29,946 bases of DNA from a virus. Shown piece by piece: positions 1 to 25,720 of this stretch; positions within the stretch are counted from its first letter, which is position 1, and each line of letters starts with the position of its first letter. The DNA lies in IMG/VR virus record IMGVR_UViG_3300034104_004079, positions 1-29,946 of that record; one strand, given 5' to 3'. The notes beneath the pieces were generated by a model that did not search any database, was not told where the DNA came from, and saw nothing but the letters and a program-made list of their open reading frames with translations. The position numbers were made by a program, and so were the translations under genes.

Positions 1-55
1 ATTACAAGCAAACAACAGCTCTGAAGAAGATAAGAGCTCTGAAGAAACGAATTAA
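1..55 (+). CDS. 3' end of metallopeptidase gene (duplicate of its end at 29874)
   Basis: These bases are the last 18 codons and stop (TAA at 53-55) of the HExxH protein gene described at 29455-29874, present here only because the circular sequence is duplicated at its ends. It is not a separate gene. Confidence 0.9.
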   Translation, partial: LQANNSSEEDKSSEETN

Positions 56-1184
56 GGTTATACAAGGAGGATCGAGTGCAGGTAAGACAATAGCAATTCT
101 AATCTTACTTATAGACCGTTGTATCAAGACCCCAAACTTAGAAGTATCCGTTGTATCAGAGTCAATACCGCATCTCCGTAGGGGATGTGTTAAGGATTTT
201 CTAAAGATCATGAAGGATACAGGTAGGTTCATCCCCCAAAACTATAATAAAACCCTTCTACGATACGAATTTACCAATGGATCCTATATTGAATTCTTCT
301 CTGCTGATTCCCAAGAAAAGCTTCGCGGGGGAAGAAGACGAATATTGTATTTAAACGAAGCCAATTCAGTAGATTATGAATCATATCTACAGTTAGCAAT
401 TCGTACATCAGGAGACATTTATATTGATTACAACCCCTCATCAAAGTTTTGGGCTCACACAGAAGTTGTAAATCAACCTGATACAGATTTTATCATACTC
501 AATTACAAAGATAATGAGGGACTTCCAATTGAGATTGTGGCAATGTTGGAGTCAAATAGAGATAAAGCTAAAACCTCATCATATTGGGAGAACTGGTGTA
601 AGGTATATCTTGATGGTGAGGTAGGTCAAGTTGAAGGTACGATCTATACAGATTTTGAAGTCATTGATAAGATCCCTGAAGAAGCAAGATTACTTGGTTA
701 TGGATTAGACTTTGGATTTAGTCAAGATCCCGCAGCTTTAATTGCGATCTATAAATACAACGAGGATATTGTAGTAGATGAGCTCGTTTATGAGACAGGA
801 TTACTGAACTCTGAACTAGCAAGTCGAATGAAACAATTTGAGATTACCTTAGATGTATACTGTGACTCTGCTGAACCCAAATCCATTCAAGAGTTAAGAA
901 GATACGGATTAAAGGTAAAACCTGTTGAGAAGGGAAAAGACAGTATCAATTATGGTATACAGATTCTTCAACAAAAACATATGTTAGTAACAAGACGATC
1001 AACTAATGTCTTAGATGAATTTTCAAAGTATATGTGGAAAAAGAACAGAGATGGAGGATATGATACCACTCCTATAGACTCAAATAACCACGCCTGTGAT
1101 GCTTTAAGATACGCAGCTATGATGTTACTTGGAGTGAGAAAAGAAAATAGGGCTACAATGCCATTTAGAATAATGAGTGCTTAA
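3..1184 (+). CDS. terL: Terminase large subunit (5' end lies at 29816, across the circular join)
   Basis: ATP-driven DNA-packaging motor and nuclease that docks on the portal. The frame is open from base 3. Its start codon ATG is at 29816-29818, so the whole protein has 395 residues. Residues below are numbered from that start. Walker A is GGSSAGKT (24-31), the Walker B-like stretch is ILYLNEAN with the catalytic Glu near 121, and the C-terminal RNase H-like nuclease carries three expected aspartates: GLDFGFS (D238), YCDSAEP (D290) and NHACDALRYA (D368). This order and length fit the Terminase_3/Terminase_3C family. An internal ATG at 210 (residue 72) would lose Walker A and is not the real start. 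The gene begins inside the preceding metallopeptidase gene (59-base overlap) and is followed by an HNH gene. Confidence 0.96.
   Translation, partial: YKQTTALKKIRALKKRIKVIQGGSSAGKTIAILILLIDRCIKTPNLEVSVVSESIPHLRRGCVKDFLKIMKDTGRFIPQNYNKTLLRYEFTNGSYIEFFSADSQEKLRGGRRRILYLNEANSVDYESYLQLAIRTSGDIYIDYNPSSKFWAHTEVVNQPDTDFIILNYKDNEGLPIEIVAMLESNRDKAKTSSYWENWCKVYLDGEVGQVEGTIYTDFEVIDKIPEEARLLGYGLDFGFSQDPAALIAIYKYNEDIVVDELVYETGLLNSELASRMKQFEITLDVYCDSAEPKSIQELRRYGLKVKPVEKGKDSINYGIQILQQKHMLVTRRSTNVLDEFSKYMWKKNRDGGYDTTPIDSNNHACDALRYAAMMLLGVRKENRATMPFRIMSA
17..46 (+). repeat. 12-bp direct repeat with 18-bp period in the gene overlap
   Basis: AGCTCTGAAGAA occurs at 17-28 and again at 35-46 (also at 29836-29847 and 29854-29865 in the duplicated end). 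It lies where two genes overlap in different frames, giving SSEE..SSEE in the metallopeptidase tail and ALKK..ALKK at the terminase N-terminus. The repeat is directly visible. A role as a packaging-recognition site is only a guess from its position next to the terminase genes. Confidence 0.6.
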
Positions 1185-1705: not shown

Positions 1706-2290
1706 ATGATTGAAATAAACATTGAATTAGATGATGAGGTAAAACAATACCAATTCCCTACAAGTTGGTCTGAAGTAACAATAGACCAATTTGGTAAATT
1801 GTATTCGATTGATAAAGAAATACACAAAGGAGCTTTCTACACCTTTGAGTTGTTACATCAATTGACAGGTATTGATAGAGAAGTTATTGAACAAATTGAT
1901 TATGACAGTTTTACTGAGTTGGTTAAAAACTTGGCATTTGTCTATCAACCAATTGAAGAGAAAAAGAACCAATCCGTTATTGTGGATGGGGAGGAATATT
2001 TCTTGTACACTGAGTTCAATAAATACACAGCAGGTGAGATCATCTCTATTGAGACAATACTTCAATCATCAAACAACGACATAATGAAGGTTATGCCCCA
2101 ACTTCTATGTATCTTTTTAAGAAAGAAAAAAGAGAATGGAAATTTGGAGAAATACAAAACCACATTTATGCAACGAACAGAGAAATTTAAAACTATCAAG
2201 GTGGATGAGATTAATCACATCTTTAGTTTTTTTTTAACTGGAAGAGATTTATCAGCCAACAATACAGTGGTCTCTTCCGAAGCCAATTAA
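1706..2290 (+). CDS. Tail assembly chaperone, short frame (G-like)
   Basis: 194 residues, acidic, with no transmembrane segment. I do not recognise the family by a signature motif. The call rests on architecture: a run of nine T near the 3' end contains a TTTTTTA slippery heptamer in the correct phase (2230-2236), and a second frame overlaps and continues to 2502. Tail assembly chaperones of long-tailed phages (lambda G/GT type) are made this way and bind the tape measure protein. Without a slip, translation continues 18 codons past the site and stops at 2288-2290. It lies at the head of the tail gene block, whereas the tape measure is 13 kb downstream, which is further than usual. Confidence 0.65.
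   Translation: MIEINIELDDEVKQYQFPTSWSEVTIDQFGKLYSIDKEIHKGAFYTFELLHQLTGIDREVIEQIDYDSFTELVKNLAFVYQPIEEKKNQSVIVDGEEYFLYTEFNKYTAGEIISIETILQSSNNDIMKVMPQLLCIFLRKKKENGNLEKYKTTFMQRTEKFKTIKVDEINHIFSFFLTGRDLSANNTVVSSEAN
2230..2236 (+). promoter_or_regulatory. Probable -1 ribosomal frameshift site TTTTTTA
   Basis: In the frame of the upstream gene the bases read T TTT TTA, the X XXY YYZ pattern for -1 slippage and the same heptamer as the HIV-1 gag-pol site. After slipping back one base, reading continues in an open frame of 88 codons to TAA at 2500-2502. I found only weak pairing downstream (for example a 5-bp stem with one G-U pair starting near 2275), so a stimulatory structure is not established. 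Confidence 0.75.
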
Positions 2291-2502
2291 GTAAGCCCCC
2301 ACCGGAGAATGAACGATTCTCTAAAAAACTAAGGGAGAAGAAATTGGATGAAAGATATGTATGGTTGGATTTTGTATATAAATTGATGAAAGAACTCAAT
2401 AAGACGGATGAAGATGTTTATAAGATGAATTATGTGTCTTGTCTGAATTGGTTGGGGTACTTCAAAAATAAAGAAGAATTAAAAGATAAAAATAGCGTAT
2501 AA
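2236..2502 (+). CDS. Frameshifted extension of the tail assembly chaperone (T-like)
   Basis: Open frame of 88 codons with no suitable start of its own, entered by -1 slippage at 2236. The fused product would be 177 residues from the upstream frame plus 88 from this one, 265 in all. The extension is hydrophilic and rich in Lys, Asp and Glu, with aromatic patches (ERYVWLDFVYKL, then SCLNWLGYF), and ends in a Lys/Glu-rich tail. It exactly fills the stretch 2291-2501 that otherwise looks empty, and its stop overlaps the next start codon as TAATG. This tight fit argues for a real coding sequence. A one-base homopolymer error in the nine-T run is the main alternative and would make the two frames a single gene. 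Confidence 0.75.
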   Translation, partial: NWKRFISQQYSGLFRSQLSKPPPENERFSKKLREKKLDERYVWLDFVYKLMKELNKTDEDVYKMNYVSCLNWLGYFKNKEELKDKNSV

Positions 2503-4178
2503 TGCCAATAACTAGCATAGTATCATTAAATCAATTGATTAATTGGTTTCAGAATTTCCAAGAGAATCATTACTTCCTAAAGGATTTTGGTTTTGGTGAA
2601 CCTTATGACATTGGAACATCAAGACAAATGACATTTCCCTACATGTGGGTGACAATGAATGAAGATAGTTCAATTGCCACAGCATCAAATGTTAAATCAG
2701 CAATTCCTGATATTTCATTTTCTGTTATGTTCATGGATAAGATCAATAATCAACCGAATTATTTGGATACCAATGGTTTTGCTTCTGACAATTCACAAGA
2801 GATTCTATCTGATACTCTACAATGTGCACAGGATTTAATTGTACATATCCAACAAGATTGGCAACAGTATGGGGTTTTAATTTCACAGGATGTATCTTTT
2901 TATCCTGCTGTAGATGAAACAACTGATAAAGCTACAGGAATTGTAGCAAGATTTGTTTTAAGAATCAGACAAGTCAACTGTGTATTACCTGAGAATCCTC
3001 AGACAATCATCGTTCAACCCCAACAAGCAACTATAGCAACCCTACTTACATGTGAGACATTACAAGATTGTCCTACATTTCAAACTTATGCTTATACAGG
3101 TGGAACATTCTCAAACCAAACATTAACAATTAACTCAATCAACGGTAATTCATTTAGTGTAACAGGATTTACAGGTGGTGGAGGTGGAGGATCTAATGGA
3201 ACTAGTGGTTCATCAGGTCAAAATGGAACCTCAGGTAGTTCAGGTGTAAGTGGAAGTAGTGGAACATCAGGAACTCGAGGTAGTTCAGGCTCATCAGGTG
3301 TTAGTGGTATATCAGGAACAAGTGGTAGTTCAGGACAAAATGGTACTAATGGAAGCTCAGGTTCAAGTGGAGCAAATGGATCATCAGGTAGTAGTGGACA
3401 GAACGGGGTCAATGGATCATCAGGATCAAGTGGAGCCAATGGAACTAACGGTACTTCAGGTTCAAGTGGCGCTAATGGTACTTCAGGTTCATCAGGGCAG
3501 ACAGGAACGAGTGGTAGTAGTGGACAGAATGGAACATCAGGAACAAGTGGTGCCAATGGAACTAACGGAACATCAGGTAGTAGTGGTGCTAATGGTGGAA
3601 CAGGAACATCAGGAACAAGTGGTAGTAGTGGAGCTAATGGAGTTAATGGGACTTCAGGATCAAGTGGTAGTTCAGGTTCGTCAGGATCTTCAGGTGTGTC
3701 ATTTATTTGGGAAGGAACTTGGAATATTTCATCGGCATATACAATAAATGATGTTGTTGGATGGAAAGGTTCATCATATATCAATATCACAGGTAATAAT
3801 GGACCTGGTGATCCAAGTTTTGATACTACTAATTGGTCTATAGTATCATCAGGACAAGAATGGGTTGGAATTTGGGATGGAAATAACGGATATTATAAAG
3901 GTCAAATTGTAGAGTATAATGGTTCAAGTTATATCTGTATTCAAACATTACCATCTGATTTTACACCACCATCTTCTAATCCAACATATTTTTCTTTATT
4001 AGCTCAAGCAGGATCAAGTGGTGTTAGTGGGACTTCAGGAACATCAGGAACATCCCCATTAAATCAAATTGCTCAAGATCCAGCAAGTCCCAATTCAATA
4101 GTTTATTTATGGTCAGGATCACAAGCTCAGTATAACGCATTAACACCGAATTCTAATACGATCTATTTTATAGTATAA
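2502..4178 (+). CDS. Collagen-like fibre protein with globular N-terminal tail domain
   Basis: 558 residues. Residues 1 to about 190 form a globular domain with no repeats, possibly a tail-terminator or completion type (inferred only from its place after the chaperone). About 229-400 is a Gly-X-Y collagen-like stalk built of GTSGSSG and GANG units. About 405-510 holds two similar W-rich modules (IWEGTW...GSSYINI and EWVGIW...GSSYICI) resembling small carbohydrate-binding modules of the chitin-binding type. A short second GTSG stretch follows, and the C-terminus has LWSGSQAQYNAL...NTIYFIV, a pattern common at the ends of phage fibre proteins. The likely role is virion attachment to surface polysaccharide. 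Its start overlaps the frameshift product's stop (TAATG), and its own stop overlaps the next start in the same way. Confidence 0.75.
   Translation: MPITSIVSLNQLINWFQNFQENHYFLKDFGFGEPYDIGTSRQMTFPYMWVTMNEDSSIATASNVKSAIPDISFSVMFMDKINNQPNYLDTNGFASDNSQEILSDTLQCAQDLIVHIQQDWQQYGVLISQDVSFYPAVDETTDKATGIVARFVLRIRQVNCVLPENPQTIIVQPQQATIATLLTCETLQDCPTFQTYAYTGGTFSNQTLTINSINGNSFSVTGFTGGGGGGSNGTSGSSGQNGTSGSSGVSGSSGTSGTRGSSGSSGVSGISGTSGSSGQNGTNGSSGSSGANGSSGSSGQNGVNGSSGSSGANGTNGTSGSSGANGTSGSSGQTGTSGSSGQNGTSGTSGANGTNGTSGSSGANGGTGTSGTSGSSGANGVNGTSGSSGSSGSSGSSGVSFIWEGTWNISSAYTINDVVGWKGSSYINITGNNGPGDPSFDTTNWSIVSSGQEWVGIWDGNNGYYKGQIVEYNGSSYICIQTLPSDFTPPSSNPTYFSLLAQAGSSGVSGTSGTSGTSPLNQIAQDPASPNSIVYLWSGSQAQYNALTPNSNTIYFIV
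3187..3699 (+). repeat. Collagen-like triplet repeat DNA in fibre gene
   Basis: Degenerate 9-to-18-base units coding Gly-X-Ser/Asn triplets, such as ggtagtagtgga and aatggaacatca. The reading frame is kept throughout. Long open frames in other phases here are by-products of the repeat. The same unit types recur at 12201-12460 in another fibre gene. Confidence 0.85.
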
Positions 4179-11563: not shown

Positions 11564-13345
11564 ATGGCAGATAAGATTGAATATTCAAGGATGTTGGTTA
11601 AAAGAACAGCTCAAACAGGAGAGGTTCCAACAGTTCCGCCAATAACAGCAGTAACATTAAATCAATTTATCCCAACAGATATATTTGTTGGTGAATTCTT
11701 TTTAAATGAAGCCGATGATCTATTATGGATCAGAACAGACAATGGTATTTTACCTATTTCTTTATCAGGTTCAACAGGAACAACAACAACTCCAAATTTA
11801 ACACAAGTATTATTTGAGGGTAATGCAACCAATGGTTATAATATTGAAGTGTCTGCCGGTGATACAGTAGTATTTAGTGGATTATCATCAGGAGTAACTT
11901 CACAATTCTTAGGTATAGATGCTAGTGGAAACACTATAGTTTCTACAGTTACACCAGGAACCCCTGATTTAGAAGATGTTTTAACTGTTGGAAATACAAC
12001 AGGAGCAAATGATATTTCAGTAAATATTGGATATAAAGTAGAAGGTCAATCAGGAGGTAATTGGGTTCGACCTGAAACCTCTGATGGTCACTTAGAATTA
12101 AATACTGATAATGAATTAACAATCGTTGGTATCTCAAGTGGTGTTACCAATGTGTTCTTATCTTATGATCCTGACACAAAATTTGTTAGATATCAAGCAG
12201 GTGGAACAGGAAGTTCAGGATCAAATGGTACTTCAGGTAGTAGTGGTGTTAATGGTAGTTCTGGATCAACAGGTGCCTCAGGTAGTTCAGGATCATCAGG
12301 TAGTAGTGGAGTAGATGGTAGCAGAGGTGAGTCAGGTTCTTCAGGAACATCAGGAACTAGTGGTTTATCAGGTGTTAATGGGACTGCAGGAACTTCAGGA
12401 TCTGATGGTAGTGCTGGTGCTACAGGTGCTTCGGGAACTAATGGAACAAGTGGGACATCTTCAACAGGGACAACATCATCTGTGTTTACATCAGGATCAG
12501 GATTAAATAGTGTTATCTCAACTTATTTAACTTCAACAAATGCACCTGGCCCATATTCATTGAACATACAGGGAACAGGTAATACAATTACTAATACACA
12601 AAGATTTACAGGATGTGTTGGTGGATCAGGTAACTCTATATCTGGTACTCAAGAAAAAGTTTATATTATAAACTCAGAAAATAGTACAATAAGTGGGCCT
12701 AGTAGGTATTCAGCAATTATTAATGGATATGCTTCTTCAATAACATCAGGAGATGGGAATACAGCAATTGGTAGAAATAATGTAATTGCTGGATCTAATG
12801 ATAATGCTTTAATTGGTGGTCATCAAAACACAATTACAAGTTCAGGAGAAGGTTTAATTGGTGGTGGATATGCACAATCAATGTCAAATGCTAATGATAG
12901 TGGTATATATGCTGGTAGAGGTAATAGTATTAATGGTGGTGGATGTTGTGGTGGAAATATTATTTTAGCAGGTGAAAGTAATAGTATTAATAACTCACCA
13001 GGTAGATATAATGGTATTCTTCAAGGTAATACTAATAATATTAGAAGTTCAGCTAACTATTCAACAATTATTAATGGAATCACAAATACAATAAGTTCTT
13101 CACAACCTTATAATAATATTATTGGATCCCAAAGTTCTACAGTTACAGGAACTACATCAGGAGCAACAATGATTGGAACTGTTAATAGATCAGCAGATAG
13201 AAATAACTGTGTTTTTGTTGAGAACTTGAAGTTATTCAATTATCCTTCTTTAGATTTTGCTAATGACTCAGATGCTGCAGCAGGTGGTGTTGTTTTAGGT
13301 CAAGTATATCATACATCAGGAACATTAAAAATTAGAATAACATAA
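11564..13345 (+). CDS. Trimeric collagen-like tail fibre with YadA-like head
   Basis: 593 residues. The N-terminus includes FVGEFFLNEADDLLWIRT (about 41-58), a small beta motif common in phage fibre N-termini. About 213-300 is a Gly-X-Y collagen-like stalk (GSSGTSG units). About 345-545 holds many degenerate repeats of the form N-x-I-x-G-x-x-N-x-I (IGRNNVIAGSNDNALIGGHQ), the beta-roll of YadA-type adhesin heads. The last part, GGVVLGQVYHTSGTLKIRIT, is a typical fibre C-terminus. The protein is expected to be a trimer and to contact the receptor. It is preceded by a 36-base gap with an A-rich leader. Confidence 0.78.
   Translation: MADKIEYSRMLVKRTAQTGEVPTVPPITAVTLNQFIPTDIFVGEFFLNEADDLLWIRTDNGILPISLSGSTGTTTTPNLTQVLFEGNATNGYNIEVSAGDTVVFSGLSSGVTSQFLGIDASGNTIVSTVTPGTPDLEDVLTVGNTTGANDISVNIGYKVEGQSGGNWVRPETSDGHLELNTDNELTIVGISSGVTNVFLSYDPDTKFVRYQAGGTGSSGSNGTSGSSGVNGSSGSTGASGSSGSSGSSGVDGSRGESGSSGTSGTSGLSGVNGTAGTSGSDGSAGATGASGTNGTSGTSSTGTTSSVFTSGSGLNSVISTYLTSTNAPGPYSLNIQGTGNTITNTQRFTGCVGGSGNSISGTQEKVYIINSENSTISGPSRYSAIINGYASSITSGDGNTAIGRNNVIAGSNDNALIGGHQNTITSSGEGLIGGGYAQSMSNANDSGIYAGRGNSINGGGCCGGNIILAGESNSINNSPGRYNGILQGNTNNIRSSANYSTIINGITNTISSSQPYNNIIGSQSSTVTGTTSGATMIGTVNRSADRNNCVFVENLKLFNYPSLDFANDSDAAAGGVVLGQVYHTSGTLKIRIT
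12201..12460 (+). repeat. Collagen-like triplet repeat DNA in second fibre gene
   Basis: Degenerate units coding Gly-X-Y triplets (ggtagtagtgg, ggaacatca). They are closely related in sequence to the array at 3187-3699, which gives two patches of near-homology about 9 kb apart. Confidence 0.8.
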
Positions 13346-15817: not shown

Positions 15818-18676
15818 ATGGCTCAAACGGCTCAGATCAATATAAATGTTAATTCCAAATCAGCACAAGAAAGTGTTGATAAATTATCCAAATCAATTAG
15901 TGGTGCTGGTGGTACTGCGGCTTCTTTAAGAGCTGAGTTAAGGCAAGTAACTGTTGAACTTCAACAATTGGAACCTGGTAGTAAAAGATTCCAAGAATTA
16001 TCAGCAAGAGCAGGTCAATTAAGAGATCAAATCCAAGATACAAACGCAGTCATCAATGCGACTGCAGGTAATGTTACTGAGAACTTTGGTAAAGCATTAG
16101 GATCAGCTGTTCAAATTGGGGTTGCAGGATTCCAAGGATTGATGGCAGTTCAAACTTTATTTGGAACAGAGAATGAAGAGTTAAATAAAACACTACTTAA
16201 AATGACAGCTCTTTTAAATTTCTCACAAGCAATAAGTTCTTTGGGAGGATTAAAAGATTCATTTACACAAATTAAGGCAGGACTTACTCCAATATTAACT
16301 TCATTAGGATTAATAGCAACAGAACAAACTGCTGTTGCGACATCAACCGCCGCTGCTGATGCTGCCTTAGTTGGGGAAGCAGTTGCTGCAGAAGGAGCGA
16401 CAGTTGCAACAGGAGGATTAGCAGTTGCTTTAAATTCAATTCCATTTGTGGCAATCGCAACAGCTGTAGGTCTTTTAGTTGCAGGTCTAATCGCATATTC
16501 AGCATCATCAGATGAAGCGGCTAAAAAAGAAAAAGAAGCGGCAAAACAAAGAAAAATACTTGAGGAACGAACTAAAGCTTTAGAAAAAGCACAAGATGAA
16601 GAAAGACAAAAAGTTGCGGAATCAAGTGTTGAATACTTTAATTTGATACAAAAGTTAAGAGATACAAATGCTGGTTCAAAAGAAAGACAAAGATTAATCA
16701 ATCAAATTAATGGTCAATATGGGACAACCTTAAAAAATATTAAGGATGAAAATGCGTTCCAATCACAATTAAACTTATCTGTTAAAGAATATATTGCGTT
16801 ACAAGTTTTAAGAGTAAGACAAGAATCTAAGAAAAAAGAAGAAGAAAAAGCAATTAAAAACTTAGTCGCAGCTCAAGACAATCTCACTAAATTTGCTAGA
16901 GAATATGGTGGAACTATTGATAAAAATGGTAAGTTACAAACCAAATGGACAGAAAAACAAATTAGTGATTATGACCTAGCAACTTATGGGGTATCAACTT
17001 TTAGAGATACTCAAGTTAAGTTAAATATGGAATTGGATGATGCTAATAAAAAGGCTCAAGCATACGCAATTACCAATAATAAATTACAAGAGGAAATAGA
17101 TAAATTAAATATCAAATTTCCTAAGACAGTAGAGGGTTATAAAGAAACTACAATTTCAACTAAAGATGCCACTGATGCTAATGAAAAATATGCGGATCTT
17201 TTAGATGAAGTTAAAAACAAACTTGAAAGAGAAATTGCTGTTCAACAAACAACTGAAAAATTAAGACAAGATAGATTAACAGGAATTGATAAGGAAATCA
17301 ATTCAATTGAGAAGTTGTACGGGGACGAAAGACAGTCAATTATAGATAGAGCTATCCAAAGAGAATTAACTCTATTAGACGAAAGATTTAAAAAAGAAGG
17401 TAAGAGTGAGGCTGATTACTTGAAAGCTTCTGAAGAGATTAGAAATAACTATGGCAAATATCTTCTTGATAGTGAAGCTGAGTTGTTACAATCTTTAGAT
17501 GCGTACAGACAACAAGATATTGAAGAGACTCAAAAAGCTTATACTGCAAAAGAACAAATAGTTTTAGAGACTACCAAAAATATTCAAACTCAAACTCAAA
17601 TGTTACAATTACAATTTGAGAAAAATGAGGCCATTAGAATTATTGAAGAGTCAAAGAAAACAGAAGAAGAGAAAAATCAGGCAAAACTTGAAGTAAGAAA
17701 AAAATATGCTCAACAAGAAATTGACCTTTTAAATAAAAATCTTGATGAACAAAAGAAATTAATCGAACTTCAATTACAAGAGATTTTAAAAGATGAAGAT
17801 AAAACAGCAGCAGAAAAAGAACAAGCTACTGAGGATGCTAATCAGAAAATTATAAAGGCAACTCAAGATACTGCTGATAAGATTAATGAAATTAATGCTG
17901 GTGTAAAAGCACCAATAGATGAAGATAAACTTGAGAAGAGTCTTGAAAAAATTAATGAGTATGTAGAAGCGGTTACAACAGCATTCAATGCTTTAGCAAA
18001 CACTATAACACTTATAAATGACACAAGATTTGCCGAGGAAGAAAGACAAATCAATGGTCGATATGAATTTGAGAAACAAGCTTTAGATAACCAATTGGCG
18101 GAAGGAATAATCGCAAGAGAACAATATGACAATTCAATTAAAGAACTTGATCAACAAAGAGAACAAGAAGCACTTCAATTGAAGAAAAAAGAGTTTGACG
18201 CTAATAAGAGATTGAATATGGCAAATGCGATAATCAATGGAGCTCAAGGTGTTTTACAAGCCTTAGCTTCATCAGCCCCTCCAATCAACTTTATCTTAGC
18301 AGGTATTGTGGCAGCCGCAAGTGCTGTTCAATTTGGTGTAATTTCATCTCAAGAATTTACAGCAGCAGGTGGTGGTATCGTTCCTGGCATTGGATCAGGA
18401 ATGGTTGATACAGTTCCTGCAAGACTCGCACCTGGTGAGACTGTTATCAATGCTCAGTCATCACAAATGTATCCTGAACTATTGAATTCAATCAATATGG
18501 CAGGTGGGGGAATCTCATTGAAACCTGATTTACCAGCAACAAACAGAGTTGATGCTGATGTTAAATTCTTTGGTGATAATAAATCAGATAAACCAATTAG
18601 AGCTTATGTTGTAGAAACTGATGTGAGTGATACACAAAAAAGAATAAATAGAATCAAACAGAGTTCAGAATTTTAA
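15818..18676 (+). CDS. Tail tape measure protein
   Basis: 952 residues. The N-terminus (SAQESVDKLSKSISGAGGTA, LRAELRQVTVELQQLEPGSK) is a typical tape-measure helical start. A hydrophobic segment follows at about 205-230 (FVAIATAVGLLVAGLIAYSA), then long Lys/Glu/Gln-rich coiled coil (about 231-790) and a second hydrophobic segment (about 815-850). The Gly/Pro-containing tail SGMVDTVPARLAPGETVINA is frequent at tape-measure C-termini. At about 0.15 nm per residue the tail would be near 140 nm long. I see no contractile sheath gene in the window, so a siphovirus-type tail is most likely. Tape-measure hydrophobic segments are thought to act in DNA passage through the host envelope. Confidence 0.93.
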   Translation: MAQTAQININVNSKSAQESVDKLSKSISGAGGTAASLRAELRQVTVELQQLEPGSKRFQELSARAGQLRDQIQDTNAVINATAGNVTENFGKALGSAVQIGVAGFQGLMAVQTLFGTENEELNKTLLKMTALLNFSQAISSLGGLKDSFTQIKAGLTPILTSLGLIATEQTAVATSTAAADAALVGEAVAAEGATVATGGLAVALNSIPFVAIATAVGLLVAGLIAYSASSDEAAKKEKEAAKQRKILEERTKALEKAQDEERQKVAESSVEYFNLIQKLRDTNAGSKERQRLINQINGQYGTTLKNIKDENAFQSQLNLSVKEYIALQVLRVRQESKKKEEEKAIKNLVAAQDNLTKFAREYGGTIDKNGKLQTKWTEKQISDYDLATYGVSTFRDTQVKLNMELDDANKKAQAYAITNNKLQEEIDKLNIKFPKTVEGYKETTISTKDATDANEKYADLLDEVKNKLEREIAVQQTTEKLRQDRLTGIDKEINSIEKLYGDERQSIIDRAIQRELTLLDERFKKEGKSEADYLKASEEIRNNYGKYLLDSEAELLQSLDAYRQQDIEETQKAYTAKEQIVLETTKNIQTQTQMLQLQFEKNEAIRIIEESKKTEEEKNQAKLEVRKKYAQQEIDLLNKNLDEQKKLIELQLQEILKDEDKTAAEKEQATEDANQKIIKATQDTADKINEINAGVKAPIDEDKLEKSLEKINEYVEAVTTAFNALANTITLINDTRFAEEERQINGRYEFEKQALDNQLAEGIIAREQYDNSIKELDQQREQEALQLKKKEFDANKRLNMANAIINGAQGVLQALASSAPPINFILAGIVAAASAVQFGVISSQEFTAAGGGIVPGIGSGMVDTVPARLAPGETVINAQSSQMYPELLNSINMAGGGISLKPDLPATNRVDADVKFFGDNKSDKPIRAYVVETDVSDTQKRINRIKQSSEF

Positions 18677-18685
18677 TTCAACAAA

Positions 18686-19681
18686 ATGGATAAAAAGATA
18701 TATAATATTATGATGACAAAATTTAACTTCAAAACTGAAGAACCAATTTTATACTTGGATTTTGATGAGGACTCAATGCTAGAAGGAATGGATGCGGTTT
18801 CATTCGTTGATAAACCAGCAACTGAGATCGAATGGAAGATGTTCGCTAAACTTGAGGATTCATATGATGATTACCCAAATTCAGCATCAGCAAACGCATG
18901 TAGAGCAATCAAATACAAAGAAAATAATAGAAATTTAGATTGTGGAACTCAGGTAGGTTGGACAAGAGCAGCTCAACTTTGTAACAGAAGAAGAATTTCA
19001 GTTGAGACGATCGCTAGAATGGCTTCATTTAAAAGACATCAACAAAACAAAGATGTTCCCTATGACAAAGGTTGTGGAGGAATTATGTGGGATGCTTGGG
19101 GTGGAACTGAAGGAGTTGAATGGGCTATTCGTAAAATGGAGAGAATCAACAACGAACTTAGAATGACCCCATTTTCAAAACAAGAATTTCAAGATATAGA
19201 TTACGAGAAAAGAATTGTAACAGCACCTGTAATGGTTGCTGAGACTCCAATTCTAAGATATAACCCTGATTTGGGTAAGTATTGGGTTAAGTTCAAACCT
19301 GAGACCATCGAGAAGATGATGAAAAAATATTTCAAAGAAAATAAGATTCATAAGGTTAATACAAACCACGATCCAAGATCTAGTAAAAATGGAGTATACA
19401 TGATGGAATCTTATATTGTTGGGGACAGAAACACTTCAAAATTATTCCCTGATCTTCCTGAAGGATCATGGGTTGCTACATTCTATGTTGACAACGATGA
19501 GGTTTGGGAAGCAATCAAGAAAGGTGAATACAATGGATTCTCATTGGAAGGTTACTTCATTGAAAAATATGAAGATGATATGGTTGACAAATTATTGATG
19601 GAGATTGAATCTACATTAAAATCTTATGTTGACGAGGATCTAATCAAAAAAAGAATAAAAGAATTATTAAATATAAAATGA
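18686..19681 (+). CDS. XkdF-like prohead protease with inserted Cys-containing domain
   Basis: 331 residues. The ends of the protein form an XkdF-type serine protease: SFVDKPATEIEWKMF (39-53), TAPVMVAETPILRYNP (179-194), VNTNHDP with the candidate catalytic His at 228, ESYIVGD (241-247), and GSWVATFYV...EYNGFSLEGYF with the candidate catalytic Ser at 286. These enzymes cut scaffold and capsid proteins during head maturation. Between about residues 58 and 155 there is an extra domain (YPNSASANACRAIKYKE, CGTQVGWTRAAQLCNRRRIS, RMASFKRHQQNK, GCGGIMWDAWGG), a module I recall in other phage head proteins but of unknown role. The gene overlaps the next by four bases (ATGA). Confidence 0.82.
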   Translation: MDKKIYNIMMTKFNFKTEEPILYLDFDEDSMLEGMDAVSFVDKPATEIEWKMFAKLEDSYDDYPNSASANACRAIKYKENNRNLDCGTQVGWTRAAQLCNRRRISVETIARMASFKRHQQNKDVPYDKGCGGIMWDAWGGTEGVEWAIRKMERINNELRMTPFSKQEFQDIDYEKRIVTAPVMVAETPILRYNPDLGKYWVKFKPETIEKMMKKYFKENKIHKVNTNHDPRSSKNGVYMMESYIVGDRNTSKLFPDLPEGSWVATFYVDNDEVWEAIKKGEYNGFSLEGYFIEKYEDDMVDKLLMEIESTLKSYVDEDLIKKRIKELLNIK

Positions 19682-20097
19682 AACAATTTTTATTAGTCTT
19701 TTTAGCATTTATCAGTCCCCTATTACCCTTAGCACTTCTTGTGACATTTGCTTCAGTGATCGACACATTTGTTGGTCGTTGGTATGCAAGAAAGAAAAAA
19801 GAAGAAGTTACTTCAAGATTGACAAGATTGGGACTTATGAGAAAATTAATAATCTATTTCACAGCATTAGTGTTTTCATTTTTGGTGGATAAATTTATGA
19901 TAAATGAGATAGCAAGAAATTACATTTGGTTTGATTGGGCTTTCACCAAGTTTGTAGCCTCTCTTTTAATTTGGATCGAGTATACATCGGTAGATGAGAA
20001 GATTAAATGGATAAAAGGAAAAGGAATTACAGATAGAATTATTGAGTTTGGAAGATCTATTAAGTCGTTGGTAAAATTCAAGGATGAGGTCAAATAA
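19678..20097 (+). CDS. Holin-like small membrane protein
   Basis: 139 residues with three likely membrane segments: about 4-32 (FLLVFLAFISPLLPLALLVT), 56-75 (KLIIYFTALVFSFLVDKF) and 88-104. A Lys/Arg-rich loop lies between the first two (RWYARKKKEEVTSRLTRLG) and there is a charged C-terminus. The order 'D-x-hydrophobic-x-G then basic loop then S..L' resembles the Bacteroidetes phage holin_4-like families, which form membrane holes at lysis. The place is odd for a holin, overlapping the protease gene by four bases inside the head block and with no lysin nearby. A membrane protein with an assembly role is the alternative. Confidence 0.55.
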   Translation: MKQFLLVFLAFISPLLPLALLVTFASVIDTFVGRWYARKKKEEVTSRLTRLGLMRKLIIYFTALVFSFLVDKFMINEIARNYIWFDWAFTKFVASLLIWIEYTSVDEKIKWIKGKGITDRIIEFGRSIKSLVKFKDEVK

Positions 20098-20143
20098 CCC
20101 GATGTATTAAACAAAAAATAAACAAATATAATTAAATGTGATT

Positions 20144-20953
20144 ATGAACAAAAAAACAAGTCTTATAGGAAAAATTAGAGAGCTCTTCGAAAGAGAAGAG
20201 TTTGCAACTGATTATACCGCTGCGACTGGTGAGATTATTCGTTGTTTAGGTGATCGTTTGGCTGTTGGAGAAAAAGTGGTTAATATCGCTGCTGAAAAAG
20301 AAGCTCCACTTCCTGATGGTGATTACCTTTTAAATAATGGTAAAACAATCACTGTAGCTGCAGGTGAGATCAAAGCAATAAACGAGTATAAAGCTGAACA
20401 ACAACCAGCTAATACAAACCGAGAAGAAATGGCAGATTACACAACAAAAGAACAAAAAGACACAGGTGCAATCGTTGAAAAACCAGGTGGTGAGAAAGAC
20501 AAAATGGCTGACTACGCAAACAAAATCGAATCCAAACTTGCTGACGGTACTGAAGTAATGATCCTTTCTAAGGGTGATGCTTTGTCTGTAGGTGATGAGG
20601 TGATGGTTAAGAATGCTGAAGGTAACTTTGTTAAAGCACCAGCAGGAAAACACGAATTGGAAGGTGGATTGGTTATCTATACTGATGATAATGGATTTAT
20701 TAATGAATTAGAGACCAAAGAAACTGAAGAGAGAGATGAAATGAAAAACATGTTCGAAGCAGTTTCAAAATTAACAGATTTAATTGGTGAATTGAAATCA
20801 GAAATTGATTCAATCAAAAATTCAAATACTGAATTAAACGAGAAATTCTCAAAATTTGCTGCTGAACCATCAGCGGAATCAATCACTAAGAAACAACACT
20901 TCACTAAGACTTCAGGGAAATTAGAGAAGATGAAGTTTTTCGGTGGAAAATAA
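20144..20953 (+). CDS. Probable scaffold/head-assembly protein with a duplicated domain
   Basis: 269 residues from ATG 20144. A GTG at 20138 in the same frame would add two residues, but the ATG has the better A/T-rich leader. Two related beta-type units are visible: about 28-86 (GDRLAVGEKVVNIAA, APLPDGDYLLNNGKTITVAA) and about 128-192 (GDALSVGDEVMVKNAEGNFV, APAGKHELEGGLVIYTDDNG). About 196-240 is a coiled coil (ERDEMKNMFEAVSKLTDLIG, ELKSEIDSIKNSNTELNEKF), and the C-terminus is basic. Its place directly before the capsid gene and after the protease, its acidity and its coiled coil all suit a scaffold. The duplicated units are of a type I associate with phage capsid-assembly proteins. Confidence 0.6.
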   Translation: MNKKTSLIGKIRELFEREEFATDYTAATGEIIRCLGDRLAVGEKVVNIAAEKEAPLPDGDYLLNNGKTITVAAGEIKAINEYKAEQQPANTNREEMADYTTKEQKDTGAIVEKPGGEKDKMADYANKIESKLADGTEVMILSKGDALSVGDEVMVKNAEGNFVKAPAGKHELEGGLVIYTDDNGFINELETKETEERDEMKNMFEAVSKLTDLIGELKSEIDSIKNSNTELNEKFSKFAAEPSAESITKKQHFTKTSGKLEKMKFFGGK

Positions 20954-20983
20954 ACATAAACCTAATATAAAAACAATTTAAAA

Positions 20984-21913
20984 ATGAGTTTAAATGTAGC
21001 AGGCTTAACGGCGTATGTAGATCAAGAGCGTATGGCGTTAATCAAAAAAATGATTTTAGGTGGTAGATCAACAAGATTTTTAACAGTTCAACCTGATATT
21101 AAATCAGCAGCATCCATCAACCTATTGTCTTCAAACTTGATAGCAGCTCCAGGTGGTTGTGGATTTACAAACACAGGTACTACTATCTTAACACAACAAA
21201 CATTGAATGTATGTCCTCTAAAAGTTAATGAATCCATTTGTCTAAACACACTTGAAGAGTACTATACGCAAGCAATGATGAACCCAGGTTCATATAACAC
21301 AGAAATTCCTTTCGAGCAATTATATGCTGAGGAGAAAGTATCTCAAATTTCTTCTTTGATCGATAGCTTAATCTGGCAAGGTAACACAGTATCAGGTTCA
21401 GGAAACTTGGCTCTTTGTGATGGTTTCATCTACTTAGCTAACACTACTTACTCAGCTTCTACAGTTGACGGTAATGTTTCTAACGCAACAGCTATTACAG
21501 CTTCTAACATCATCGGATTAGTTGACGACGCTGTGAATGTAATTCCAGCTAACATCATCGATATGGATGACTTGTATTGTTATGTAGGATACGATTTCTA
21601 TAGAACTTACGCAACAGCTTTAAGAAATGCTAACTTGTTCGCATATACAGGAGCTGAAGATCAAGGTGAGTCTTTCTCTCAAATGGTACCTGGTACTAAT
21701 GTAAGATTGATCGCTGTTAAAGGTCTTAACGGAACTAACAAATTCTTCATCTCTTCTAAGTCTAACATGTACTTCGGTACTGACTTATTGAATGACTACG
21801 AAAACTTCGAATTATGGTATTCACTTGATAACCAAGAAGTTAGAATGGCGTCAAAATGGAAGCAAGGTGTGAACGCAGCGTTCTGGGATTATGTAGTATA
21901 CTTCAAACTGTAA
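20984..21913 (+). CDS. Major capsid protein
   Basis: 309 residues. The call rests on position (directly after the protease and probable scaffold), length, and composition typical of capsid proteins: no low-complexity stretch, evenly spread Asn/Thr/Ala, conserved-looking segments SICLNTLEEYYTQAMMNPGS, QISSLIDSLIWQGN, and a final QGVNAAFWDYVVYFKL. An HK97-type fold is assumed from the family context of TerL, portal and XkdF-like protease, not shown by a motif. In this and the tail tube gene, codons appear shifted towards C- and G-ending forms (gac, aac, ttc, atc) more than in the fibre genes, as expected for a highly expressed protein. A hairpin at 21935 follows the stop. Confidence 0.82.
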   Translation: MSLNVAGLTAYVDQERMALIKKMILGGRSTRFLTVQPDIKSAASINLLSSNLIAAPGGCGFTNTGTTILTQQTLNVCPLKVNESICLNTLEEYYTQAMMNPGSYNTEIPFEQLYAEEKVSQISSLIDSLIWQGNTVSGSGNLALCDGFIYLANTTYSASTVDGNVSNATAITASNIIGLVDDAVNVIPANIIDMDDLYCYVGYDFYRTYATALRNANLFAYTGAEDQGESFSQMVPGTNVRLIAVKGLNGTNKFFISSKSNMYFGTDLLNDYENFELWYSLDNQEVRMASKWKQGVNAAFWDYVVYFKL

Positions 21914-21934
21914 TCGACAACACTAAAAAAACTT

Positions 21935-21955
21935 AAGGGGTGAAAGTCCCCTTTA
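21935..21955 (+). terminator. Weak hairpin after the capsid gene
   Basis: AAGGGG (21935-21940) pairs with CCCCTT (21948-21953) across a seven-base loop, but only three T follow before an A-rich stretch. It may be an attenuator or mRNA-stabilising hairpin that sets capsid and tube expression apart from the rest. Confidence 0.5.
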
Positions 21956-21987
21956 TAAAAATAAACTAAAAACAAAAACAATATAAT

Positions 21988-22509
21988 ATGGCTTTTACAT
22001 GTAATTTAACAGATGGTTATGTATTGGGTTGTTCATCTATAGGTGGTGTTGAGAAAGTTTGGATCGGTGAATGGGTTGATAATGTACAAGTAGCTCAAGA
22101 CTCTTGTGGTATTATCACAGGTATCACAACTACAGGTTTAACTGTATATTCATTCGAACAAGATATCGAACACGCTGGTTTGACACAAGCAGGTAACTAC
22201 TCAAGAGAAAACGGTACTGTATTCTATGAATCAACTTTATCAATCAAATTGATAACTCTTGATTGTAATGTAAGAAACAGAATGGTTGAACTTGGTAGGG
22301 CTCCACTTTTCGCAGTAGTTAAATCTAACGCTGGTGACTACTACTACTTAGGTTTAGAGTCTTCAGGTAGGGCTTCGGCGGGACAAGCGGATTTAGGCGT
22401 TTTGCTTGGTGACATGAACGGATTATCCCAATCAATTTCTTGGAAATCTGCAAACGGTGCATTCTTAATCAACGGAAACTTAATCGGAACTACAATCACT
22501 GTACTTTAA
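21988..22509 (+). CDS. Probable major tail tube protein
   Basis: 173 residues, predicted largely beta, with five Cys in the first two-thirds. The segment YSFEQDIEHAGLTQAGNYSR followed by ENGTVFYESTLSIKL resembles tail-tube proteins of Bacteroidetes phages in my memory, and the C-terminal half (GLSQSISWKSANGAFLINGN) fits a beta-sandwich. Codons look optimised as in the capsid gene, and it stands alone between two hairpins, both consistent with a very abundant virion protein. A head decoration protein is the main alternative. It is separated from the tape measure by the protease, holin-like, scaffold and capsid genes. Confidence 0.5.
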   Translation: MAFTCNLTDGYVLGCSSIGGVEKVWIGEWVDNVQVAQDSCGIITGITTTGLTVYSFEQDIEHAGLTQAGNYSRENGTVFYESTLSIKLITLDCNVRNRMVELGRAPLFAVVKSNAGDYYYLGLESSGRASAGQADLGVLLGDMNGLSQSISWKSANGAFLINGNLIGTTITVL

Positions 22510-22543
22510 GATTTCTTCAGGGTCTTCTGACCTTTATTCAAAG

Positions 22544-22571
22544 CCCTCTGATGGATTTCAGAGGGTTTTTT
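22544..22571 (+). terminator. Intrinsic terminator after the tail tube gene
   Basis: CCCTCTGA (22544-22551) and TCAGAGGG (22558-22565) form a perfect eight-base stem with a six-base loop, followed directly by six T (22566-22571). A smaller imperfect hairpin (AGGGTC/GACCTT around 22519-22534) lies just upstream. The T tract overlaps the stop codon of the reverse-strand gene. The reverse strand has no T tract after the stem, so termination is mainly of forward transcripts. Confidence 0.88.
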
Positions 22572-22836
22572 ATTTTATACCCATTCTTTTCATCTCATTA
22601 ATAACCTCATCTACGCTATTATAAAATTCATCATTAAAAATATAGACATACTTACCGTTCTTCAATTTCTTATAATTAAAAGTAATTTCAAATTGACATT
22701 TACTCATTACACAAGGATCTAGTTCAATTACAGTTCTTGTTAGAAGATAATTTAGTTTGTAATCACCTTTGTAAATTCTAGATACATACCAACCCCAATC
22801 TATTAAATCCTTTAGGTAATCAATTATTTTATTCAT
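22570..22836 (-). CDS. Small reverse-strand gene of unknown function (moron-like)
   Basis: 88 residues, mixed charge and aromatic-rich (IDWGWYVSRIYKGDYKLNYL, NGKYVYIFNDEFYNSVDEVI), with no signal peptide or membrane segment. It is the only reverse-strand gene inside the structural region. It has its own promoter box at 22841-22848 and is closed off by the forward terminator at its 3' end. An independently transcribed small gene inserted between virion genes is the usual picture of a moron, often serving host takeover or superinfection control, but nothing in the sequence shows which. Confidence 0.65.
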   Translation of the reverse strand: MNKIIDYLKDLIDWGWYVSRIYKGDYKLNYLLTRTVIELDPCVMSKCQFEITFNYKKLKNGKYVYIFNDEFYNSVDEVINEMKRMGIK

Positions 22837-22840
22837 AAAA

Positions 22841-22848
22841 CAAATATA
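22841..22848 (-). promoter_or_regulatory. Bacteroidetes-type -7 promoter box TATATTTG
   Basis: On the reverse strand the bases read TATATTTG, a perfect match to the TAnnTTTG box used by the main Bacteroidetes sigma factor. It lies four bases before the ATG of the reverse-strand gene, so its transcript would be leaderless or nearly so. I see no clear TTTG-type -33 box, only T-rich DNA upstream. Confidence 0.5.
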
Positions 22849-22874
22849 CTCAAAAAATATTTAATAAAAAAAGC

Positions 22875-23255
22875 ATGATTAGTATTGCGAATTATCAAAC
22901 TACTTTGACTCCGTTTACCTTATTGGAGAAAACAACATTTCCATTAAGTGCGACTACATATATACTTCAATTAAACGGTAAGGAATTACATGATGAGACT
23001 TTGTTATTTTTGACAGGAGACACTTCAAATAATATTAATAGGTATAACTACTTCCCTATTAATTTGACTCCTTTAAATTTAACGCCAGGTCAATATGATT
23101 ATACCGTATGGCAGAATACAGGAAATACACTTTCCACTTCAGCTTTAACAATAAACGATGTGGTTGAAACAGGATTTGCAACAATCTATGGAACAACTCC
23201 AACACCTGATCCAGTATATGTACCAACGGGTCAAACACAATATGTATTTATTTAA
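22875..23255 (+). CDS. Small beta-rich virion protein candidate before portal
   Basis: 126 residues, Thr/Leu/Asn-rich, with alternating hydrophobic strands (TTYILQLNGKELHDETLLFL, PGQYDYTVWQN) and a Thr-Pro segment near the end (YGTTPTPDPVYVPTGQ). No recognised family. The ATG follows an A-rich leader, and the stop is only two bases before the portal start, so it is in the portal operon. An Ig-like or decoration-type structural role is a guess from composition and place. Confidence 0.55.
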   Translation: MISIANYQTTLTPFTLLEKTTFPLSATTYILQLNGKELHDETLLFLTGDTSNNINRYNYFPINLTPLNLTPGQYDYTVWQNTGNTLSTSALTINDVVETGFATIYGTTPTPDPVYVPTGQTQYVFI

Positions 23256-23257
23256 TT

Positions 23258-24466
23258 ATGAATGTAGAAAAAAACATAGAAACACCAAACAAAGAAAAAG
23301 GTCTACCTGTTAGAATATTCCAATTTAACGAGGCTTATGCCCCACCAATTTACAATTTTGTAAAAAAAGGAGAGTACCATTTTATTTCATTTGGTCAAGA
23401 TAACTTGTACCCTGTATTTCTTTTAGAATTATACAATAACTTTGGATCACCATTGAATAAAGCGATCATCAATAAGAAAGTTAAAATGTCCACAGGATTT
23501 GGATATAAACCATTGATGGATCCAAAACTTAAAGAGTGGGCTCGTGTAAATAACCTTGAAAGATTATTCTTGTACATTTCAAAAGACTTTGAAATCTATA
23601 ATGGTTTCTGTATGGAAGTAATTTGGAACAATGGTGGTACATCATTTGAATTGAACTATGTTCCAATCCATACTGTTAGAATTGGAATCAAAGAAGAAGA
23701 GTCTGAAGCTGATTATTTTTGGTATTCAAAAGATTGGGCTAATATCAAGAAGGAAGAGAATACTCCTGAGTATATCAAGAAATTTGATCCTAACGATAGA
23801 AAAGGTCGTCAGTTGATATATTACATCGAACCTAACCCTGCGATGACTCATATGTATCCAATTGCTAACTATTCTACAGCAATTAACTACATTGACTTGG
23901 ATTATCAAATTGGTAAGTTCCACATCAACCAAGTTAGACAAGGTTTTGCTCCTTCATTTATTTTGAACTTTGGAACTGGCGTTCCGACGCAGGATGAGCA
24001 AAATCAATTCTATAGAGAATTCCAAAGAAACTACAAAGGATCTGATGGAGCTGGTAAGATAATTTTAACCTACTCAAATGGAGGTGATGAAAAACCTGAA
24101 CTTATTCCTATAAATTTGAATAATTCGGATGAACGCTTCATTATGTTACAAGACATGGTTGAGAAAAACATCACACAGGCTCACGAAATGCCACTTCAGT
24201 TGGTATCATTCCAACCAGGTAAATTGGGTTCATCAGATGAGAGAAAAGAACTAATGGCGGAGTTTCAAACATACTACATCGCAATTAGACAAAACCAACT
24301 AGAAGAAAGTATCAATGGATTACTTGAAACAATAGGATTTACAGAAAAAATTATATTAAAGAATTATGTAAGTGCTGATCAATCAGGTGTTCTTAGTCAA
24401 AATCCTGAGGAGCCTATCCAACAAGTGGATTCACAAGTAGAAAATAAAACATTAGAAAACCAATAA
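23258..24466 (+). CDS. Portal protein
   Basis: 402 residues. It forms the dodecameric ring at the head vertex that binds terminase and the connectors. Supporting features are the N-terminal extended region with SFGQDNLYPVFLLELYNNFG, alternating alpha/beta wing regions (YNGFCMEVIWNNGG, YVPIHTVRIG), the segment IYYIEPNPAMTHMYPIANYS, a central helix region (AINYIDLDYQIGKFHINQVR), a region ending HEMPLQLVSFQPGKLGSSDE, typical of phage portals where the late helices begin, and a polar Gln-rich C-terminus. Slightly short for the class, but complete. It lies downstream of the capsid gene, the reverse of the common portal-protease-capsid order. Confidence 0.85.
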   Translation: MNVEKNIETPNKEKGLPVRIFQFNEAYAPPIYNFVKKGEYHFISFGQDNLYPVFLLELYNNFGSPLNKAIINKKVKMSTGFGYKPLMDPKLKEWARVNNLERLFLYISKDFEIYNGFCMEVIWNNGGTSFELNYVPIHTVRIGIKEEESEADYFWYSKDWANIKKEENTPEYIKKFDPNDRKGRQLIYYIEPNPAMTHMYPIANYSTAINYIDLDYQIGKFHINQVRQGFAPSFILNFGTGVPTQDEQNQFYREFQRNYKGSDGAGKIILTYSNGGDEKPELIPINLNNSDERFIMLQDMVEKNITQAHEMPLQLVSFQPGKLGSSDERKELMAEFQTYYIAIRQNQLEESINGLLETIGFTEKIILKNYVSADQSGVLSQNPEEPIQQVDSQVENKTLENQ

Positions 24467-24467
24467 A

Positions 24468-25094
24468 ATGTCATATACACCAGTAGTCTATTTTATATCA
24501 ACAGAGTACTTGAGAGCTCAAACTCCAATTGAAGATAATGTTGATGACACAAAACTAACACCGTACATCATTCAGGCTCAAGATACATACCTTCAAGAAG
24601 GGATTGGAGAGACTTTCTATGATAGATTGAAGGATGGTGTTAAGTTCAACAATTTAAATACGGATGAAGCAAATTTCATGAGAAACTTTGTCCAGCCGCA
24701 AATTGCGCAGTATGCTTTTTATTTAGCAATGCCATTCATCGCATTTAAAGCAACCAATAAGTCTGTATCAAAAGAATCAAGTGAGTACTCAGCACCTGCT
24801 GAACTTAGTGAATTGAAATTCTTAAGAAGTAATGTATTGGATATAGCTGAATTCTATAAGAGAAGAATGATCAAATATTTGTTGGATCACCCAAGTATGT
24901 TCCCTCAATATAACAATCCAAACTCTAAGGATAACATGCCGAAATCTATTCAGTCTTACTTTGGAGGGTTATATATGCCTTACGGATACACTAGAGGACT
25001 TGCACCGAATTATCTTGAACCTTATGGTACCATAACACCTTGTTGGGGATGTGGTGGTTATGTAGGAGGTTATAATGGAACAAACCCTTATTAA
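24468..25094 (+). CDS. Head-tail connector (adaptor) candidate
   Basis: 208 residues. The N-terminal two-thirds are helical (TKLTPYIIQAQDTYLQEGIG, MRNFVQPQIAQYAFYLAMPF), a layout like the adaptor proteins that sit under the portal and like the DUF6712-type proteins of Bacteroidetes phages. The C-terminal third is a Gly/Tyr/Pro-rich tail (WGCGGYVGGYNGTNPY). It follows the portal by one base, the standard place for a connector. No enzyme motif is present. Confidence 0.6.
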   Translation: MSYTPVVYFISTEYLRAQTPIEDNVDDTKLTPYIIQAQDTYLQEGIGETFYDRLKDGVKFNNLNTDEANFMRNFVQPQIAQYAFYLAMPFIAFKATNKSVSKESSEYSAPAELSELKFLRSNVLDIAEFYKRRMIKYLLDHPSMFPQYNNPNSKDNMPKSIQSYFGGLYMPYGYTRGLAPNYLEPYGTITPCWGCGGYVGGYNGTNPY

Positions 25095-25096
25095 TT

Positions 25097-25720
25097 ATGT
25101 GTGAGAATTTATATACATTTGAAGAATTATTGTATCATCCTAAATTGAGTGATGACTACAAAGTTCAATACTTTGAAGAGATGGTAAATGAAGATGTATT
25201 TTGTGACTGGTTTGAGTCATTAAATAATCTTGGTATTTCAATTTCTAACTTGGGAATTGATATTGCTGATTTAAACTCATTAGATTACATATGGGACATT
25301 AACGATGAAGATAAGGGTATTCCATCACAGACAACACAATTTGGCTCTCAGGAGCAATTTAGAGTGATCAATCTATATCGTTATATCTCAAGAGAATATG
25401 GACCTTCTTTTATTGGGCCAAATACAAGAAGATTTTGTAGAATGGTAGTATCAAGAACAAATAATTCTCTAATGAGATATGAAGATATAGTAAGATTGAA
25501 TTCACAAAACCCTGGTTTGGGTAAAGGTGGTTCAAACAGTTACTCAGTATTTGAATGGAGAGGTGGAGCAAACTGTAAACATATTTGGGTAAAATACAAG
25601 TATGATACAGAATCAAGAAGATTAATTGAAGCACCTGTTACAGAACAACCACGAAATGTTCAAGTAGATGGAATGGTACCATACGCAAATGGAACAAATA
25701 CTCCACCACCAAGAAACTAA
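25097..25720 (+). CDS. Minor head protein candidate with GGANCKHIW motif
   Basis: 207 residues. The first half is acidic (ISNLGIDIADLNSLDYIWDI), and the second half has PSFIGPNTRRFCRMVVSRTN and then YSVFEWRGGANCKHIWVKYK. The C-x-H-x-W motif with upstream GG resembles the C-terminal stretch of phage minor head proteins, where a GG-x-x-C-x-H-x-W pattern recurs. It is the last gene of the structural block and ends 12 bases before the hairpin of the strong terminator. Its place after portal and adaptor fits a head-closure or minor capsid role. Confidence 0.5.
   Translation: MCENLYTFEELLYHPKLSDDYKVQYFEEMVNEDVFCDWFESLNNLGISISNLGIDIADLNSLDYIWDINDEDKGIPSQTTQFGSQEQFRVINLYRYISREYGPSFIGPNTRRFCRMVVSRTNNSLMRYEDIVRLNSQNPGLGKGGSNSYSVFEWRGGANCKHIWVKYKYDTESRRLIEAPVTEQPRNVQVDGMVPYANGTNTPPPRN

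Follow-up and report, generated by a model that had tools for sequence, protein, structure and literature searches.

Between positions 1706 and 2502 of the viral sequence analyzed here (29,946 nt, IMG/VR record IMGVR_UViG_3300034104_004079, hereafter the window), two reading frames overlap at a run of nine Ts. This raises the question of whether they are decoded as one gene with two products, by what mechanism, and for what function. The overlap was confirmed from the sequence (Table 1). Frame 0 reads ...TTT AGT TTT TTT TTA ACT GGA... across the run (2227–2235). The −1 frame is closed by TAG at 2224–2226 and, as initially annotated, stays open for 88 codons (2236–2499) up to a TAA (2500–2502) whose last A begins the ATG of the next gene at 2502. 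Two heptamers in X_XXY_YYZ phase overlap within the run, T_TTT_TTT (2227–2233) and T_TTT_TTA (2230–2236), and a slip at either would give a 265-residue product, with a one-residue difference between them (SFFFNWK or SFFLNWK). The first start-type codon of the −1 frame is codon 39 counted from the start of the heptamer. At 33% GC the genome is expected to contain about three A/T runs of at least nine, and two were seen; a T9 run alone is therefore not improbable, and the evidence rests on conservation.

Table 1 Coordinates of the features discussed, on the window unless a locus is named.
Feature	Coordinates	Strand	Remarks
Terminase large subunit (terL)	3..1184	+	truncated at its 5' end by the window; immediately precedes frameshift gene in relatives
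Zero-frame gene ("G-like"), 194 aa	1706..2290	+	stop TAA 2288–2290; residues 1–176 conserved
Slippery heptamer T_TTT_TTT (U_UUU_UUU)	2227..2233	+	phase kept in all relatives reaching the site
Overlapping heptamer T_TTT_TTA, possible second slip register	2230..2236	+	unconserved
−1 frame extension ("T-like"), 89 codons + stop	2233..2502	+	predicted helical
Putative stimulatory hairpin	2240..2278	+	GGAAGAGA 2240–2247 pairs with TCTCTTCC 2271–2278
Next gene	2502..4178	+	N-terminal domain of ~165 aa conserved; collagen-like and carbohydrate-binding fibre parts behind it; comes after frameshift gene in relatives
Tape-measure protein	15818..18676	+	phrog_9483, E 6e-9; 13 kb downstream of frameshift gene
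T10 clade loci	L187:2001-2783, L188:1598-2380, L189:2001-2786, L190:2001-2774		

We searched IMG/VR with the zero-frame protein (20 loci) and with an alignment limited to residues 1–173 (73 loci), leaving the extension out of the queries. In this first round 53 loci reached the slip site, 34 of them at ≤97% identity. Three further searches returned 83 loci. Beyond the first round there were 58 more distinct loci, with identities down to ~22–31%, and Foldseek pointed to the isolate P12024S. Each of the 53 first-round loci had T_TTT_TTT in X_XXY_YYZ phase, as did every later one reaching the site. The codon that follows it (equivalent to 2234–2236) was TTA in 34 of the 53 loci, TCA in 12, TTG in three, TCT in two, and ATA and TTT in one each, with TAT, TAG, and TTC also found in more distant relatives. 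Because this codon varies while the upstream heptamer is constant, T_TTT_TTT is the conserved element. The initial annotation had placed the slip at an HIV-like TTTTTTA in an undescribed family. The libraries searched do contain no description of the family, and TTTTTTA does lie in phase at 2230–2236, but we rejected it as the conserved site since its last codon varies freely among relatives; the conserved heptamer lies one codon upstream.

Run length was less constrained than phase. The 53 first-round loci comprised 46 with T9, four with T8, two with T10, and one with T7, and across the family the run spanned 7–10 Ts in constant phase. T7 or T8 occurred at six scattered tips of a 37-tip tree, so that a run of at least nine Ts is not maintained, and the lineages with short runs kept the extension (T7 in L091; T8 in L054, L074, L077, L100, and L059). 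We therefore rejected the T9 length as a conserved feature. The usual T9 probably reflects the heptamer plus an overlapping −1 frame Phe codon. Codon choice at the site was strict: the slip-site Phe codons were TTT in 76/76 cases (38 representatives) compared with 292 TTT and 119 TTC elsewhere in frame 0 (71% TTT), and a conserved Phe lying two codons ahead of the slip pair was TTC in 19 sequences vs TTT in 14. The codon preceding the two slip Phe codons always ended in T and encoded S, N, L, G, V, T, I, or A. Naive probabilities, which ignore relatedness, were 5e-12 for the slip Phe codons all being TTT and 1e-15 for the preceding codon ending in T.

Nearly all relatives with the site continued into a homologous −1 extension of 80–100 residues. 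First-round extensions had 87–94 residues and terminated at the start codon of the following gene or close to it, except in loci cut by a contig end and in L095, whose extension end appears chimeric. In the loci of the three further searches that reached the site, one clade (L187–L190) aside, they had about 80–95 residues. Mean column identity was 60% (40 sequences), with W3, Y11, F29, Y67, L71, N72, and W73 invariant. Differences in the overlap fell mostly at −1 frame third positions, which are frame 0 second positions, indicating that conservation lies in the −1 frame. In relatives a −1 stop precedes the heptamer, for the most part by no more than 15 codons, and almost all sequences lack a −1 start codon until about codon 28–60 of the extension, the first 15 residues of which were among the best conserved. 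A conserved part without a preceding start must be made as a fusion, here 265 aa beside 194 aa. The zero-frame tail, 18 codons past the slip site in the window, was not conserved in length, with 6–35 codons in near relatives and none in L105, where TAG directly follows the slip codons. Heptamer and extension were also kept in the distant relatives L105 (31% identity), L059 (25%), and L106 (24%). In the L106 clade frame 0 extends to 258 codons, and the extension is nonetheless encoded in the −1 frame (...QYAGLF...WLDLVNNLA...). The homologue alignment suggested with the initial annotation thus found the phased heptamer and the extension conserved across ~110 loci. Searches of genome contigs with the extension alignment, and of a phage collection with the window protein, found no relative. 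In L060 (1692–2411) a TGA cuts the extension after 26 residues and the rest lies in another frame, through either a broken gene or an assembly error. One 34-kb contig (IMGVR_UViG_3300028571_000063) holds two differing copies of the frameshift gene ~28 kb apart, L079 and L087.

The family also has cultured members. Protein gp38 of the Nonlabens (Persicivirga) phages P12024S and P12024L is homologous to the window protein (profile comparison over residues 13–176, Foldseek E 3e-8), with 17% identity in a structural alignment. It has the same place after terL, the same heptamer, and an extension overlapping gp39, although the two were annotated as hypothetical proteins with no frameshift. In P12024S (L107, NC_018271, 23136–23830) gp38 directly follows terL, the site reads CTT TTT TTT TAT, and the −1 frame encodes ...LYPELY...W.W...LYWLAY, with annotated gp39 as its end. 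Judged from these frames, gp39 is no separate gene but the last part of the gp38 extension, and the same arrangement is likely in P12024L. The P12024S family member is phrog_32199, a group whose function is given as unknown in its annotation.

The phased heptamer, the conserved extension, and the want of a usable start make programmed −1 frameshifting, as initially annotated, a well-supported source of a predicted short product and a 265-residue fusion. The majority of ribosomes would stay in frame 0 and make the 194-residue protein. Some, at the moment when tRNA-Phe fills both their P and A sites at UUU UUU (2228–2233), would slip back by one base. U_UUU_UUU allows full re-pairing of tRNA-Phe in both sites, so both tRNAs would again pair fully on UUU UUU, and the slipped ribosomes would proceed in the −1 frame to the end of the fusion. 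Slippage is probably mainly ribosomal. Constructs tested in E. coli shifted far more readily on A_AAA_AAG than on U_UUU_UUU (PMC5009743), a point against this reading that would nevertheless agree with a product made at a low level.

RNA folding downstream of the slip site, proposed as a check with the initial annotation, gave a hairpin in the window clade that is not universal. In the window it starts 6 nt after T_TTT_TTT and 3 nt after TTTTTTA, with a predicted −13.1 kcal/mol in the lowest 0.7% of the contig's 45-nt windows; across the window clade the energies fell in the lowest 0–1.3% per contig. Pairing was kept in 93% of cells (12 distinct sequences), almost without informative variation. 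The L074–L090 clade had a longer-loop stem at the same distance in GGCGGG/CCCGCC, GGAGGG/CCCTCC, and GGCGGAA/TTCCGCC versions, with seven double-change cells vs 3.0 in shuffles and a covariation score reached by 0/500 shuffles and by none of the slid controls. Unusually stable stems were seen in two clades, the window's included. L018, L050, L075, L092, L114, and L187 had no stable downstream structure, so we rejected a universal hairpin; it looks like an aid and not a requirement, one that would assist slippage in the window clade.

Other origins of the two frames were weighed against ribosomal slippage. RNA polymerase could add one U at T9, giving a U10 mRNA and the same fusion. T runs above 8 are known sites of such transcriptional slippage (PMC3711429), which T9 is long enough to join, and exactly nine Ts in 46/53 first-round loci as well as the clades without a stable hairpin would agree with it. 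Against this, the T7 and T8 lineages keep the extension without a longer run, the constant feature is the phased heptamer, with the extra Ts following from the −1 Phe codon after it, and the stems at a fixed distance of 5–6 nt, with their compensatory changes, fit ribosomal slippage. A run of 7–10 Ts in constant phase favors the ribosomal mechanism, and we regard programmed transcriptional slippage as an unlikely explanation in its stead; a contribution from both is possible. The annotation of gp39 in P12024S as a gene would agree with an extension that is a separate, translationally coupled gene with its own start. The −1 stop upstream of the heptamer, start codons only from about codon 28–60, and well-conserved residues 1–15 speak against it, and we rejected an independent T gene for want of start codons, leaving this reading a very small probability. 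Smaller still is the chance of a homopolymer sequencing error or a decayed gene. The frames do break at the T run, as such an error would have it, but the same phased break recurs in independent metagenomes and sequenced isolates and both parts are under protein-level selection across very large divergence. For the family as a whole, the conserved break refutes this reading and with it the homopolymer error named in the initial annotation as a possible refutation.

That annotation had also named a different T count fusing the frames as evidence against frameshifting. One clade, L187–L190, has this arrangement, with CTT TTT TTT TTC GAA TGG (T10) placing both parts in one frame of 257–261 residues, but its slip site is kept in phase and the other ~110 loci are unaffected. 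A −1 slip there would terminate after nine codons; with the heptamer kept despite fusion, slippage in this clade would yield the short form. It is conceivable, and we propose it only tentatively, that the U-run acts as an evolutionary switch, with the long form made by slippage in most of the family and the short form by slippage in L187–L190, the default being inverted. If so, both products would have been kept even though the default form changed. E. coli dnaX offers a parallel in that slippage, with a hairpin downstream, makes its shorter form, but it is a cellular gene with an A_AAA_AAG site and an unrelated product. It is not unusual for a random frame to close within ten codons, so the inverted use in this clade is suggestive only; the fused clade was the least expected part of our findings.

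Gene order around the frameshift gene was kept in relatives as terL, frameshift gene, 2502-type, 5973-type, 6485, and 8438, the neighbors being syntenic tail/neck-like genes. The neighbors 2502 and 5973 brought no useful match when searched against solved-structure sequences. Between terL and the frameshift gene, the window has a homing-endonuclease-like gene (1196–1657; HNH_3 and a weak AP2 match) that is absent here in most relatives, with kin elsewhere in L009, L075, and L098 and after the extension in L059. Long collagen-like Gly-Ser-Ser/Gly-Thr-Ser repeats occur at 3180–3710 and 12200–12500 in the fibre genes 2502–4178 and 11564–13345. The order in 15818–25720 is unusual: the tape-measure gene is followed by protease (Peptidase_S78_2), scaffold-like, capsid-like, small structural, and portal genes, which thus lie downstream of the tail genes. 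Gut Bacteroidales phages have a compact order of terL, a ~200-aa protein, two genes that appear, without a library match, to be terminator-like and gp10-like, two further genes, and the tape measure. Their ~200-aa protein has the same place, a single frame of 195–200 residues, and a vaguely similar end (hhalign P 0.2, a weak match).

An AlphaFold2 model of residues 1–176 (mean pLDDT 90.8) had two N-terminal strands, helices, two strands near 90–100, and more helices; the extension was modeled as helical (mean pLDDT 72). The protein gave no match in Pfam or PDB sequences and no strong match among PDB folds, and neither profile comparison nor the library and solved-structure searches matched it significantly to any named family of chaperones. 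Foldseek in BFVD returned 39 matches below 1e-3, nearly all uncharacterized phage proteins, and, weakly, a protein named tail assembly chaperone at E 1.7e-3. The top VIA-align match, for residues 1–81, was the HK97 chaperone (PDB 2ob9; Z 2.5, rmsd 4.1, 64 residues), a weak match of partial coverage and within noise; no other chaperone in that list had Z ≥2, which we did not count as evidence. Matches of 13 members to phrog_166 "tail protein" were weak, fell on different parts of the profile, and were not used. The tail chaperone annotated in Flavobacterium phage FPSV-S2 showed no sequence match. Protein R9VW65 of Flavobacterium phage 6H (Foldseek E 3e-6, TM 0.37) was not counted; a TAG interrupts its −1 frame immediately behind the FF site.

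The protein probably assists in tail assembly, and from its architecture, size, and place a G/GT-type chaperone appears, with reasonable confidence, to be its most likely function. Like lambda G/GT, whose −1 frameshift mechanism has been described (PMC5009743), the window gene has a predicted short and a predicted −1 extended form of similar sizes in a structural module of a long-tailed phage. It differs in its T_TTT_TTT heptamer, in having no demonstrable homology to lambda G/GT, and in its place after terL and not directly before the tape measure; the G/GT position between major tail and tape-measure genes was not found. Because terL immediately precedes the gene and the tape-measure gene is 13 kb away, we infer rather than assign a G/GT-type function. 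The tail chaperone reading of the initial annotation thus keeps its two-form architecture, sizes, tail-gene neighborhood, and weak fold hints, but without a place adjoining the tape-measure gene or demonstrated homology. The same two facts, the position in syntenic relatives and the absence of significant chaperone homology, would suit a recoded protein of which two forms are made for head completion, the neck, or packaging, a reading that we give a minor though real share of probability. In long-tailed phages, however, a −1 frameshift gene of this size with two products is typically G/GT (PMC5009743), no other such overlapping pair was seen beside the window's tape-measure gene, and the weak fold hints and the compact terL-to-tape-measure block of gut Bacteroidales phages also point to a chaperone. 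Taken as a whole, ribosomal −1 slippage at 1706–2502 yielding 194- and 265-aa products that act like lambda gpG/gpGT is the reading we consider rather probable. As for gpG/gpGT, many short and few long chaperones would bind the tape-measure protein, and the extension would recruit the tail-tube protein.

Frameshifted tail chaperones are already known (PMC5009743); in the papers open to search no mention was found of this family, its slip site, or its presence in P12024S/L. The hosts of the family are most probably Bacteroidota. These results provide a two-product mechanism and a likely function for a widespread, unnamed environmental phage family, probably of Bacteroidota, and correct the annotation of two cultured phages. 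The family also offers a natural series, with runs from T7 to T10, hairpins present or absent, and a fused clade, for testing the decoding of U-runs in its hosts.
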